NCBI GenBank assembly: GCA_024641475.1 | Contig: JAHECZ010000001.1 | Location: 101,759 to 143,098 of the forward strand | Origin: Gammaproteobacteria bacterium | GTDB lineage: Bacteria > Pseudomonadota > Gammaproteobacteria > UBA6429 > Thiohalophilaceae | DNA length: 41,340 bases | Direction of reading: 5' to 3' | Program-made: the position numbers and the translations under genes | The notes under the pieces: model-generated | The model's input: the letters and a program-made list of their open reading frames with translations, nothing else | Told to the model about the DNA's origin: nothing | Database searches by the model: none | In this document: positions 3,000 through 6,779 of the stretch, piece by piece | Position numbering within the stretch: the first letter of the stretch is position 1 | How the letters are laid out: every line of letters starts with the position of its first letter

Positions 3000-3027
3000 T
3001 TGACAATATGGTGGAGCGGTGTAAATT
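3000..3027 (+). promoter_or_regulatory. Sigma70-type promoter of the small membrane gene
   Basis: TTGACA (3000-3005), a 16 bp spacer and TAAATT (3022-3027) on the plus strand. Transcription would start near 3034 and give a leader of about 74 nt before the ATG at 3108. The leader contains a perfect 6 bp hairpin, AGGCAG/CTGCCT, at 3064-3078. Predicted by eye only. Confidence 0.55.
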
Positions 3028-3107
3028 AACAGAAATCATCTATTTGCCTGCCAAGCATTATTAAGGCAGCCACTGCCTAGTCAATCCAATTTCTACGGAG
3101 GTGTGCT

Positions 3108-3878: not shown

Positions 3879-5063
3879 TCATTTAATCTTGGCCAAACCT
3901 CGGTGCAGATCGGCTTTGATATCACGGATATCTTCCAGTCCCACTGCAACACGCAACAGATTGTCACGTATCCCAGCCTGCGCGCGTTCAGCTTCGCTGA
4001 TACGGCCGTGTGTGGTTGTCGCCGGATGCGTGATCGTGGATTTGGCGTCGCCGAGATTGGCAGTAATAGAAAGCATGCGAGTATTGTCGACTACTTGCCA
4101 CGCCTCATTTTTACCACCTTTTACTTCGAATGCCAGCACGCCACCAAACGCCGTTTGTTGTTTGCGTGCCAATAAATGCTGCGGGTGTTGCGGCAGGCCT
4201 GGGTAGTATACTTTTTGCACTGCTGGATGTTCCTGTAAAAACACAGCCAGCTCCAATGCTCGCGCACTATGTACCTGCATACGTAATGACAAGGTTTCCA
4301 GGCCTTTCAAGAAAACCCAGGCATTAAATGGACTCAAACTGGGACCGGCAGTTCGAATCACACCATAGATCTCTTCGCCGACACGGTGTTTATCGCCAAC
4401 CACAGCGCCGCCCAAACACCGCCCCTGTCCATCGATATATTTTGTAGCGGAATGAATTACCAGATCCGCGCCTAGTTTTAGTGGCTGTTGCAGTGCCGGC
4501 GTACAAAAACAATTATCCACTGCGAGCACACAACCGTGCGCATGTGCTATTTTGGCGATGGCCTCGATATCGGCAACCTCAATTAATGGATTTGATGGTG
4601 TCTCGACAAAAAACAGTTTGGTGTTTTTTTGTACTGCCTTTTCCCATTCAGTCACATCGGTCTGTGATACATACGTGACAGAAATTCCAAAACGCGCCAG
4701 GTATTTATTGAAAAGAATCACGGTAGAACCAAAAATACTGCGCGATGAGACGATGTGATCGCCCGCCTGCAACAACGCAAGACAGGTACTTAAAATCGCG
4801 GCCATGCCAGAAGCAGTCGCCACACAGGATTCGCCACCTTCGAGCGCAGCCAAACGCTCCTCAAAACTGCGCACTGTTGGATTGGTAAACCGCGAATAAA
4901 TATTTCCCGGCGTTGTACCCTTAAAACGCGCCTCCGCCTCCGCTGCATTTTTAAAAACATAACTGGAGGTTAAATATATCGGCTCACTGTGCTCACCTTC
5001 GGCACTGCGATGTGTACCCGCTCTTACCGCCAGGGTATCAAATTCATAATCTTCAAAATCCAT
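3879..5063 (-). CDS. metZ: O-succinylhomoserine sulfhydrylase
   Basis: A 394-residue PLP enzyme of the Cys/Met metabolism family. It makes homocysteine directly from O-succinylhomoserine and sulfide in methionine synthesis. The PLP lysine is K208 in SATKYIDGQGR, and the tyrosine/arginine of YSRFTNPT (about 56) that binds the neighbouring subunit's PLP phosphate is present. Full length. MetZ following purF is the order known from Pseudomonas. The start has a good Shine-Dalgarno (GCGAGG). The 192 bp leader before it carries a promoter, a SAM-II-like aptamer and a terminator hairpin, so expression is probably reduced when S-adenosylmethionine is high. MetB-type cystathionine synthase is the main alternative; the context favours MetZ. 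Confidence 0.93.
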   Translation of the reverse strand: MDFEDYEFDTLAVRAGTHRSAEGEHSEPIYLTSSYVFKNAAEAEARFKGTTPGNIYSRFTNPTVRSFEERLAALEGGESCVATASGMAAILSTCLALLQAGDHIVSSRSIFGSTVILFNKYLARFGISVTYVSQTDVTEWEKAVQKNTKLFFVETPSNPLIEVADIEAIAKIAHAHGCVLAVDNCFCTPALQQPLKLGADLVIHSATKYIDGQGRCLGGAVVGDKHRVGEEIYGVIRTAGPSLSPFNAWVFLKGLETLSLRMQVHSARALELAVFLQEHPAVQKVYYPGLPQHPQHLLARKQQTAFGGVLAFEVKGGKNEAWQVVDNTRMLSITANLGDAKSTITHPATTTHGRISEAERAQAGIRDNLLRVAVGLEDIRDIKADLHRGLAKIK

Positions 5064-5102
5064 ACTGGCCTCGCTTTAGCTAAGATTAATTCGAGCAGGC
5101 AC

Positions 5103-5148
5103 AAAAAAACCCGCTTCGCTACCGTTTAATATCGGGCTAAAGCAGGCT
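5103..5148 (-). terminator. Terminator hairpin in the metZ leader (attenuator)
   Basis: On the minus strand GCCTGCTT (from 5147) pairs with AAGCGGG (to 5110), extended by GC pairs with one bulged A, and is followed by seven T (5109-5103). It lies downstream of the metZ promoter and of the SAM-II-like aptamer, and shares the segment GCTTTAGC (5143-5136) with a competing hairpin formed with GCTAAAGC (5165-5158). It therefore fits a riboswitch-controlled attenuator. It could also end purF transcripts. Confidence 0.75.
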
Positions 5149-5154
5149 CTGAGG

Positions 5155-5207
5155 CTCGCTTTAGCAGAATTTATTAAGCGCCCGCAAGCTGAATTCAAAT
5201 CGGCGCA
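5155..5207 (-). ncRNA. SAM-II riboswitch aptamer upstream of metZ
   Basis: The minus strand matches the conserved parts of the SAM-II (SAM-alpha) aptamer in the right order. P1 5' strand GCGCC (5206-5202) is followed directly by GATTT (5201-5197). Then come CTTGC (5188-5184), the P1 3' strand GGCGC (5182-5178), AATAAAT (5176-5170) and GCTAAA (5165-5160). From memory, the crystallised environmental SAM-II RNA has the same blocks GAUUU, UUGC, AUAAAU and GCUAAA in this order and at nearly the same distances. SAM-II binds S-adenosylmethionine through a pseudoknot and is typical of methionine genes, mostly in Alphaproteobacteria. The gene controlled here, metZ, is a methionine gene, which supports the call. 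Confidence 0.85.
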
Positions 5208-5214
5208 TGAATAG

Positions 5215-5243
5215 ATACTAGTGAACCAATTTTAAGAAGTCAA
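5215..5243 (-). promoter_or_regulatory. Sigma70-type promoter of metZ
   Basis: On the minus strand TTGACT (5243-5238), exactly 17 bp, then TAGTAT (5220-5215). The predicted start near 5208 would put the first transcribed bases at the beginning of the SAM-II-like aptamer. This close spacing supports both calls. Confidence 0.7.
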
Positions 5244-5255
5244 TAGTCCCTGAAG

Positions 5256-6779
5256 TTAGGCATTATTATAAAGCTCAACAACTTCACTATCCGTCATCTG
5301 GCTGTCTTTATTACGAGCAGCATCATTACGCTGCATTTCAAGCTGGCGCAAATAATCTGCCGTGATATCGCCGGTCACGTAATCACCGTTGAATACCGAG
5401 GTATCAAAACGTTGAATCGGCTTCTTCGCCTTTTTCATGACAGCCTGAATAAGATCCGGCAACTCCTGGTAAACAAGCCAATCAGCGCCAATTAATTTGG
5501 CGATTTGTTCCTCATTGCGATCATGGCCGATTAATTCACTGGCAACCGGCATATCAATCCCATAGACATTGGGAAAACGCACCGGCGGAGCAGCTGATGC
5601 AAAATACACTTTGTTGGCACCGGCATCGCGTGCCATTTGAATAATCTGCTGTGAGGTGGTGCCGCGCACAATAGAATCATCCACCAACAGCACGTTCTTG
5701 CCTTTGAATTCCAGATGAATCGGATTGAGTTTCTGTCTTACCGATTTTTTACGTTGGGTCTGGCCAGGCATGATGAAGGTGCGACCGATATACCGATTCT
5801 TGATAAACCCTTCGCTGTATTTCAATCCCAGTGTATAGGAGAGTTGTAGTGCCGAGGTGCGACTCGTATCCGGAATAGGCAATACTACATCGATATCATG
5901 CTGTGGATACAGTCGCTGGATCTTCTTGGCCAGAAACTCACCCATACGCATTCGCGCCTTGTGTACCGAAATACCATCCATCATCGAATCTGGCCGGGCG
6001 AAATAAACATGTTCGAAGATGCAGGGTGAAAGCATGGGCTTGTCAGCGCATTGACGCGCATACATTTGGCCATCAGCATCAAAGTAAATCGCTTCGCCGG
6101 GTTCGACGTCACGTAATAACTCAAATCCCAGCACATCAATGGCAACACTTTCCGAGGCAGCCACGTATTCAACACCCAGCTCAGTATCACGTTTACCGAT
6201 TACCAGGGGCCGAATTCCATGTGGGTCGCGAAACACCAGAATGCCACGACCGACAATCATCGTAACGACTGCATAAGCACCTTTACAACGACGATGCAAT
6301 GCTGCCACGGCAGCGAACAGATCATCCGGGTCAACATTCAGTTTATTCGATACCTGCACATGCAGTTCATGTGCGAGTACGTTCAACAGTACTTCGGAAT
6401 CAGAAGAGGTATTGATATGCCGTTTATCCGTAACAAACAACTCACGCTTCAGTTGTTCGGCATTGGTTAAATTACCATTGTGTGCCAGGGCGATTCCAAA
6501 CGGTGAGTTTACATAAAACGGTTGCGACTCGGCAGAGGAAAAACACCCTGCTGTGGGATAACGCGTATGCGCGATACCCATATTGCCCTTTAAACGCATC
6601 ATGTGGCGAGTATGGAATACATCACGCACCAGGCCATTACTTTTACGTAGATACATCACATCGCCATCGCTGGTCATCATCCCGGCGGCGTCCTGACCAC
6701 GATGCTGCAGCACGGTCAGACCATCATATAAATGCTGGTTAACCGGACCCTTGCCTACGATACCCACAATGCCACACAT
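5256..6779 (-). CDS. purF: Amidophosphoribosyltransferase
   Basis: A 507-residue PurF, the first committed enzyme of purine synthesis: it transfers glutamine amide nitrogen to PRPP to give 5-phosphoribosylamine. The N-terminal class II glutaminase domain starts MCGIVGIVG, so Cys2 becomes the nucleophile after removal of Met1. The C-terminal phosphoribosyltransferase domain has the PRPP signature [12 protein letters not shown] (about residue 366). Length and domain order match the E. coli-type enzyme without an N-terminal propeptide. It lies 25 bp downstream of cvpA, the usual cvpA-purF pair. A Shine-Dalgarno (GAGG) precedes the ATG. Confidence 0.97.

Follow-up and report, generated by a model that had tools for sequence, protein, structure and literature searches.

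Which regulatory element lies ahead of metZ in this gammaproteobacterial genome, and how might it act on the gene? Within the 41,340-nucleotide stretch analysed (hereafter, the window), purF and metZ are separated by 192 bases on the minus strand (Table 1), for which the original prediction had proposed a SAM-II riboswitch. All six of the sequence blocks that it had read as standing in SAM-II order and spacing were recovered on the minus strand: GCGCC (5206–5202), GATTT (5201–5197), CTTGC (5188–5184), GGCGC (5182–5178), AATAAAT (5175–5169), and GCTAAA (5165–5160).

The SAM-II aptamer between purF and metZ

By sequence and comparison, the element between the two genes was confirmed as a SAM-II aptamer placed directly behind a sigma-70-like promoter. 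With an open threshold, the Rfam model RF00521 (SAM_alpha) matched 5216–5139 over its full length (E 9e-5 in a 261-base stretch); genome-wide, the same match reached E 2.6e-4 and was the sole one at E 0.001. RF01726 (SAM-II long loop), likewise at an open threshold, gave 15.4 bits in the metZ leader. Scanning the whole window at Rfam gathering thresholds returned 0 matches, as the 28.4 bits of RF00521 fall below its gathering score of 36. The original prediction had named a covariance-model hit above threshold as its own touchstone, by which the Rfam result would speak against it: the match is there, the score is under the cut-off. That cut-off is a curator's threshold and no biological feature. 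Model R2, built from 19 aptamers that all come from outside the host's family (clade-excluded), found the window aptamer genome-wide with E 2e-19 (76.2 bits; next best, E 0.03). A search with RF00521 at E 0.01 hit 57 of 96 related genomes, with 20 of these exceeding the cut-off; 14 control genomes gave no match. For at least one of the 57, G080, the hit looks fortuitous. Because related leaders pass the cut-off and R2 is decisive, the SAM-II identity is upheld despite the low RF00521 score. One candidate second copy in the host genome (L153; R1 21.6 bits, R2 E 0.03) was rejected, as it looked like coding sequence by eye.

From the 72 RF00521 matches in the related genomes, 71 leaders were taken (G066:C8 was left out), and three that looked chance-like (L149, L150, L151) were excluded downstream. 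The alignment comprises 55 of 67 extracted aptamers, without four cut short by the search pattern (L014, L115, L126, L131) and eight close copies; L148, which carries Ns in the aptamer, was kept out of the alignment and did not match the pattern used for the antiterminator count below.

Around the SAM pocket, U10–12, U20, U21, G22, C23, G42, C43, U44, and A45–47 are described as completely conserved (PMC3764141). With the window positions fitted to this numbering in the present analysis, all 13 pocket nucleotides are present in the window and invariant in 55/55 aligned aptamers. P1 is paired in 100% of the alignment cells, with changes on both sides at three of its five pairs (a count of three was reached in 1 of 500 shuffles); these changes are confined to two of the 55 sequences, both divergent, and the covariation is thus thin. 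In the pseudoknot helix P2, 96.7% of cells pair, five of six pairs are invariant, and the sixth, a C-G pair, is lost in 11 of the 55 sequences; since P2 hardly varies, its covariation says little.

The promoter that the original prediction had placed at the head of the aptamer held up as the only promoter-like match within 5040–5300, on the minus strand (one found; shuffle mean, 0.4), and the leader RNA is predicted to start at ~5208, seven nucleotides past the –10 box and two bases ahead of P1. Promoter-like pairs with at least 9 of 12 matches, 3–12 nt ahead of P1, recurred in 51 of 93 leaders as compared to 93 of 4650 shuffles; here, as in the leader counts below, the sequences share ancestry and are not independent, and shuffles ignore kinship. 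Already in 2005, a near-consensus promoter just ahead of P1 was reported as usual for SAM-II (PMC1273637).

Table 1 Features of the metZ leader and its flanking genes; positions are those of the window.
Feature	Positions	Strand	Basis
purF, neighbour upstream	5256–6779	–	TIGR01134 524 bits, cut-off 350
Sigma-70-like promoter TTGACT-17-TAGTAT	5215–5243	–	TTGACT 5243–5238, TAGTAT 5220–5215
SAM-II aptamer	5155–5206	–	RF00521 28.4 bits; R2 76.2 bits; 13/13 pocket positions
P1	5206–5202 with 5182–5178	–	5/5 pairs
Pseudoknot P2	5191–5184 with 5165–5157	–	Sequence/alignment
SAM-pocket nucleotides	5199–5197, 5187–5184, 5165–5160	–	List in PMC3764141
GCUAAAGC copy 1: pseudoknot 3′ strand and putative antiterminator 5′ strand	5158–5165	–	Sequence
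Putative antiterminator hairpin GCUAAAGC...GCUUUAGC	5136–5165	–	–13.3 kcal/mol predicted
Putative intrinsic terminator CCUGCUU...AAGCGGG; stem includes GCUUUAGC (5143–5136), seven U at 5109–5103	5103–5150	–	Core stem –12.0 kcal/mol
Hairpin AGCGGG-UUUUUUUGUG-CCUGCU (loop U7GUG) around the U-run	5094–5115	–	Read-through RNA only
GCUAAAGCGAGG: second copy of the aptamer 3′ strand, metZ Shine-Dalgarno region	5069–5080	–	Sequence
metZ, O-succinylhomoserine sulfhydrylase, controlled gene	3879–5063	–	NF006003 705 bits, cut-off 522

Putative terminator and antiterminator, and the metZ Shine-Dalgarno region

Past the aptamer, GCUUUAGC on the 5′ strand of the terminator is the exact complement of GCUAAAGC on the aptamer's 3′ side, and the terminator region reads CCUGCUUUAGCCCG...AAGCGGG followed by seven U, a layout similar to that of related leaders. 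A simple terminator scan, which allowed only loops of 3–8, reported none at the leader. When prefixes of increasing length were folded, the antiterminator was part of the minimum-energy fold at nt 73–97 and the terminator from nt 100 onwards; blocking the strands of the pocket and P2 likewise gave the terminator. Sequence and folding, together with the comparison to related leaders, give a terminator and an antiterminator that exclude each other, the antiterminator strand being one that the bound aptamer would occupy. The free full-length prefix at equilibrium favours the terminator (–29.4 kcal/mol), and the ON state would therefore need kinetics, that is, an antiterminator that forms first. 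Compared with shuffles, the whole leader had no extra stability (z –0.38), and the 45-nt terminator stretch had it mildly (z –1.59).

Related leaders often share these elements. Of 102 supplied leaders, 94 were distinct and counted: an antiterminator complement of at least seven Watson-Crick pairs was present in 63 (versus 174 of 1880 shuffles, the leaders again being related and not independent) and lacking in 31, and a run of at least five U was present in 84 and lacking in 10. In 76 of these 84, the best complement lay no more than 45 nt ahead of the U-run. Of 117 leaders that have a U-run, 44 also have arms bracketing it, as against 405 of 5850 shuffles, a comparison that again involves related leaders, not independent ones; the variants GCGGG, GCAGG, and GTGGG were matched by their downstream arms, and the hairpin of the window also appeared in the whole-leader fold.

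We consider it very probable that the element is a SAM-II riboswitch that shuts off metZ via transcription attenuation; SAM binding, termination, and the direction of control are what we infer for the metZ leader from its sequence. Under this model, the aptamer, comprising P1 and the pseudoknot P2, would be the first part of the nascent RNA to fold. At low SAM, GCUAAAGC would pair with GCUUUAGC, and the resulting antiterminator would occupy the 5′ strand of the terminator, allowing read-through into metZ. At high SAM, the pseudoknot would keep GCUAAAGC, leaving GCUUUAGC free for the terminator stem CCUGCUU/AAGCGGG ahead of the seven U. Such a scheme is the usual one for an OFF switch.

The aptamer's 3′ strand has a second copy, GCUAAAGCGAGG, in the Shine-Dalgarno region of metZ. 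Such a copy directly ahead of the metZ start was seen, among 136 leaders, only in the window and in one genome of the same genus (L119, the same as L032); in ten leaders with a metK-type aptamer (see below) and in L161, the strand copy sits in the 3′ strand of the terminator instead. When the strands of the pocket and P2 were kept from pairing in the fold, the Shine-Dalgarno region was paired with its complement CCUGCUUUAGC, save for a bulged G (0.73 unpaired), and enforcing the antiterminator partly opened it (unpaired, 0.10–0.44). In read-through RNA, and in this genus only, a freed CCUGCUUUAGC might thus pair with GCUAAAGCGAGG and also shut translation. As the Shine-Dalgarno region is largely paired in the free full-length RNA too, this second layer is weakened to a possibility, and that one SAM-II aptamer has two outputs—with GCUAAAGC in the pseudoknot, GCUUUAGC in the terminator, and GCUAAAGCGAGG at the metZ Shine-Dalgarno—is a tentative reading that we hold to be rather unlikely. 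If true, SAM would first halt transcription, after which the freed complement would close the ribosome site in RNA that had escaped, and a single aptamer would do the work of two in tandem SAM-II leaders.

The same pairing can be taken further, to an aptamer that acts mainly on translation, with a weak or bypassed hairpin and U-run and the Shine-Dalgarno copy as the true output. The complementarity of GCUAAAGCGAGG to CCUGCUUUAGC, the responses of the Shine-Dalgarno region to blocking and enforcing, and the retention of the copy in the same-genus relative all speak for it, and the introduction of PMC9373788 covers SAM-II translation control. However, a U-run behind a stem is common to the leaders, the copy has been seen in a single genus, and the Shine-Dalgarno region is mostly closed without any constraint, so we regard a chiefly translational switch as improbable and favour attenuation. 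In either case, the original prediction had missed the terminator and antiterminator as well as the second strand copy, sound as it was on identity, promoter, and target.

Distribution, target genes, and variants

In the class sample, 182 of 369 genomes carry the element according to model R1; in the phylum sample, 62 of 299 do. The sampled class is, by inference, the Gammaproteobacteria of GTDB, which we take to include the former Betaproteobacteria. RF00521 matched 118 of the 369 class genomes and exceeded its cut-off in 30; the form seen here often scores under it. Consequently, the view that a SAM-II copy is unusual in this background, on which the claim to novelty had rested, did not survive: besides these counts, Coxiella and Bordetella are among the sequences in a figure legend of the founding SAM-II paper (PMC1273637), and SAM-II outside the alpha group also features in a 2007 survey (PMC2258182). 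On its own, the metZ site is an ordinary SAM-II switch of known type, and the wider annotation corrections outweigh it in worth.

The element preceded 34 of 80 named metZ loci according to R1, which was built partly from these leaders. Among 141 leader rows (redundant), 131 had a downstream ORF: 93 clustered with metZ and 17 with metK, three were metF, metX occurred singly, two were metN-like (best family TIGR02314, under its cut-off), and the rest were none of these. The survey shows SAM-II in about half of the sampled class genomes, mostly on methionine genes where inspected, which agrees with the original prediction of metZ as a fitting target. It also bears on whether the RNA, while SAM-II-shaped, could have changed its ligand or lost binding altogether. 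The sub-threshold RF00521 score and the known ligand-switched variants that lead from SAM-I to spermidine (PMC10853860) would allow for this, yet the full set of pocket nucleotides is kept and the genes behind the element are metZ in the window and metZ, metK, metF, metX, and metN-like ORFs in relatives; we judge such a change highly improbable and retain SAM as the probable ligand.

A second SAM-II target is metK, in the host's family and in others (L009, L010, L019, L021, L113, L114, L127, L130, L138, L140, L141, L144). In metK-type aptamers, CAGATTGC replaces CAGCTTGC, which turns one P2 pair into A-G, and most of them repeat the aptamer strand in the 3′ strand of the terminator.

Tandem SAM-II aptamers were seen in four genomes (L194–L198 in G284, L217 in G396, L209 in G161, and L175/L233 in G368). 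By eye, a terminator lies behind the first aptamer of a pair and none behind the second; G284 has ten matches. The ORFs behind the tandem aptamers L195, L209, and L217 had no Pfam match. Behind L175/L233, the first ORF is bpMoxR-like (30.4 bits, cut-off 27) and a SAM-synthetase-like ORF follows; the idea of a defence-system switch was rejected, since the latter ORF makes a normal SAM-linked operon equally likely. In L048, two SAM-II aptamers (443–501 and 1238–1296) lie 795 bases apart upstream of metZ and are identical over the 43 printed bases.

Plasmids carry the element as well. A Legionella adelaidensis plasmid record of 15 kb has SAM-II (L193, 2498–2558) directly ahead of a metN-like ORF that is absent from the PLSDB table, which omits genes crossing the record start. 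In the alphaproteobacterium Paracoccus seriniphilus, a plasmid-borne gamma-type SAM-II (L192, 2499–2558) precedes a short hypothetical ORF. One Paraburkholderia plasmid (L191) has a SAM-I/IV element at 2331–2439 (57.5 bits) and, ~565 bases on, a SAM-II element at 3004–3063 (R1 40.4 bits).

RF02424, metXZ, and known SAM-II systems

The opposite strand of the leader matches a further Rfam family, the Burkholderia sRNA RF02424 (Bp2_287), at 5104–5243 on the plus strand (22.6 bits, E 0.0026; cut-off, 70). Only Burkholderia stagnalis (201.4 bits) and Caballeronia sp. SBC2 (96.4 bits) exceeded this cut-off (L190 2966–3139 and L189 2972–3177, both on the minus strand), and in both of these Burkholderiaceae the match lies opposite SAM-II (R1 38.0 bits over the full length, 35.2 bits over the first half) with a metZ-like ORF downstream. 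Reverse-complemented, the conserved blocks of RF02424 turn into SAM-II blocks and its first hairpin into the leader terminator. In the class sample, RF02424 matched 41 of 369 genomes, 42 times in total and never above the cut-off: 38 of the matches overlap R1 on the opposite strand and 0 on the same strand, and another three face partial R1 matches (L228, L229, L231), giving 41 of 42 opposite SAM-II; for the remaining one (G316, L230), no SAM-II was found opposite even with filters off. Because both strong Burkholderiaceae matches and 41 of 42 class matches oppose SAM-II, the RF02424 "sRNA" appears to be a SAM-II leader with its terminator read on the wrong strand. This plus-strand sRNA, antisense to the metZ leader, might instead be the functional RNA, and its source paper backs the candidate by RT-PCR (PMC3521395), but with the window match so far under the cut-off, the blocks and hairpin explained by the other strand, and the sole promoter-like site of 5040–5300 on the minus strand, we rejected this as the least probable reading of all.

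Some SAM-II variants have the A-rich third loop swapped for an insert (L190 2999–3063, L189 3002–3095, L228, and L231), which in L190 may form a small hairpin, GGGG-CUUC-CUCCCC. RF00521 at E 0.1 had no match in L189 and L190.

In beta-proteobacteria, the metXZ element—a conserved metX/metZ leader with a proposed pseudoknot and terminator—was published as new without a ligand (PMC4239095). Going by this published description, metXZ is likely the SAM-II element. Both are metX/metZ leaders with a terminator. The beta species named here contribute metZ leaders; ahead of metX, SAM-II together with a terminator-like hairpin was found in three genomes of one family. Searching plasmids with MetX by tblastn returned 28 records, whose beta group consists of two Neisseria gonorrhoeae records only. 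Among the PMC titles and openings of abstracts listed by literature searches, none stated that metXZ or RF02424 is SAM-II. The antisense reading of RF02424 and metXZ as a probable SAM sensor are direct annotation corrections, and the missing ligand of metXZ becomes testable through the SAM-II link. In that same 2014 regulon study (PMC4239095), searches with Rfam profiles placed SAM_alpha in Rhizobiales and Rhodobacterales alone, a restriction that fits the Rfam threshold effect seen here.

How, then, does the present element compare with known systems? With SAM-II as modelled in RF00521 it shares P1, the pseudoknot, the 13 pocket nucleotides, the promoter ahead of P1, a terminator past P2, and a methionine gene. 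Unlike RF00521, the consensus here reads GCGCC-GATTTGA-CAGCTTGC-GGGCGC with short P2 arms, and many members score below the cut-off. With the RF02424 candidate it has the type of locus in common, as purF, metZ, and metX are among the neighbours in a figure legend of PMC3521395, whereas RF02424 is catalogued as an sRNA and on the other strand; in addition, the RF02424 loci of B. stagnalis and Caballeronia have the A-rich loop replaced by an insert (in B. stagnalis, with the possible small hairpin). The metZ SAM-II leader of Sinorhizobium meliloti controls the same gene, but in an alphaproteobacterium: there, high SAM raises riboswitch sRNAs and lowers read-through mRNAs for metZ and metA, and a transcription terminator is predicted to form in the metZ leader upon SAM binding; a strand copy at the Shine-Dalgarno goes unmentioned in the abstract and two sections of PMC9373788 that were consulted. 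Finally, the tandem bi-mechanism SAM-II systems (PMC9481103) regulate both transcription and translation from the same leader, as may be the case here, yet they do so with two aptamers, whereas the metZ leader has a single aptamer and an extra copy of its strand.
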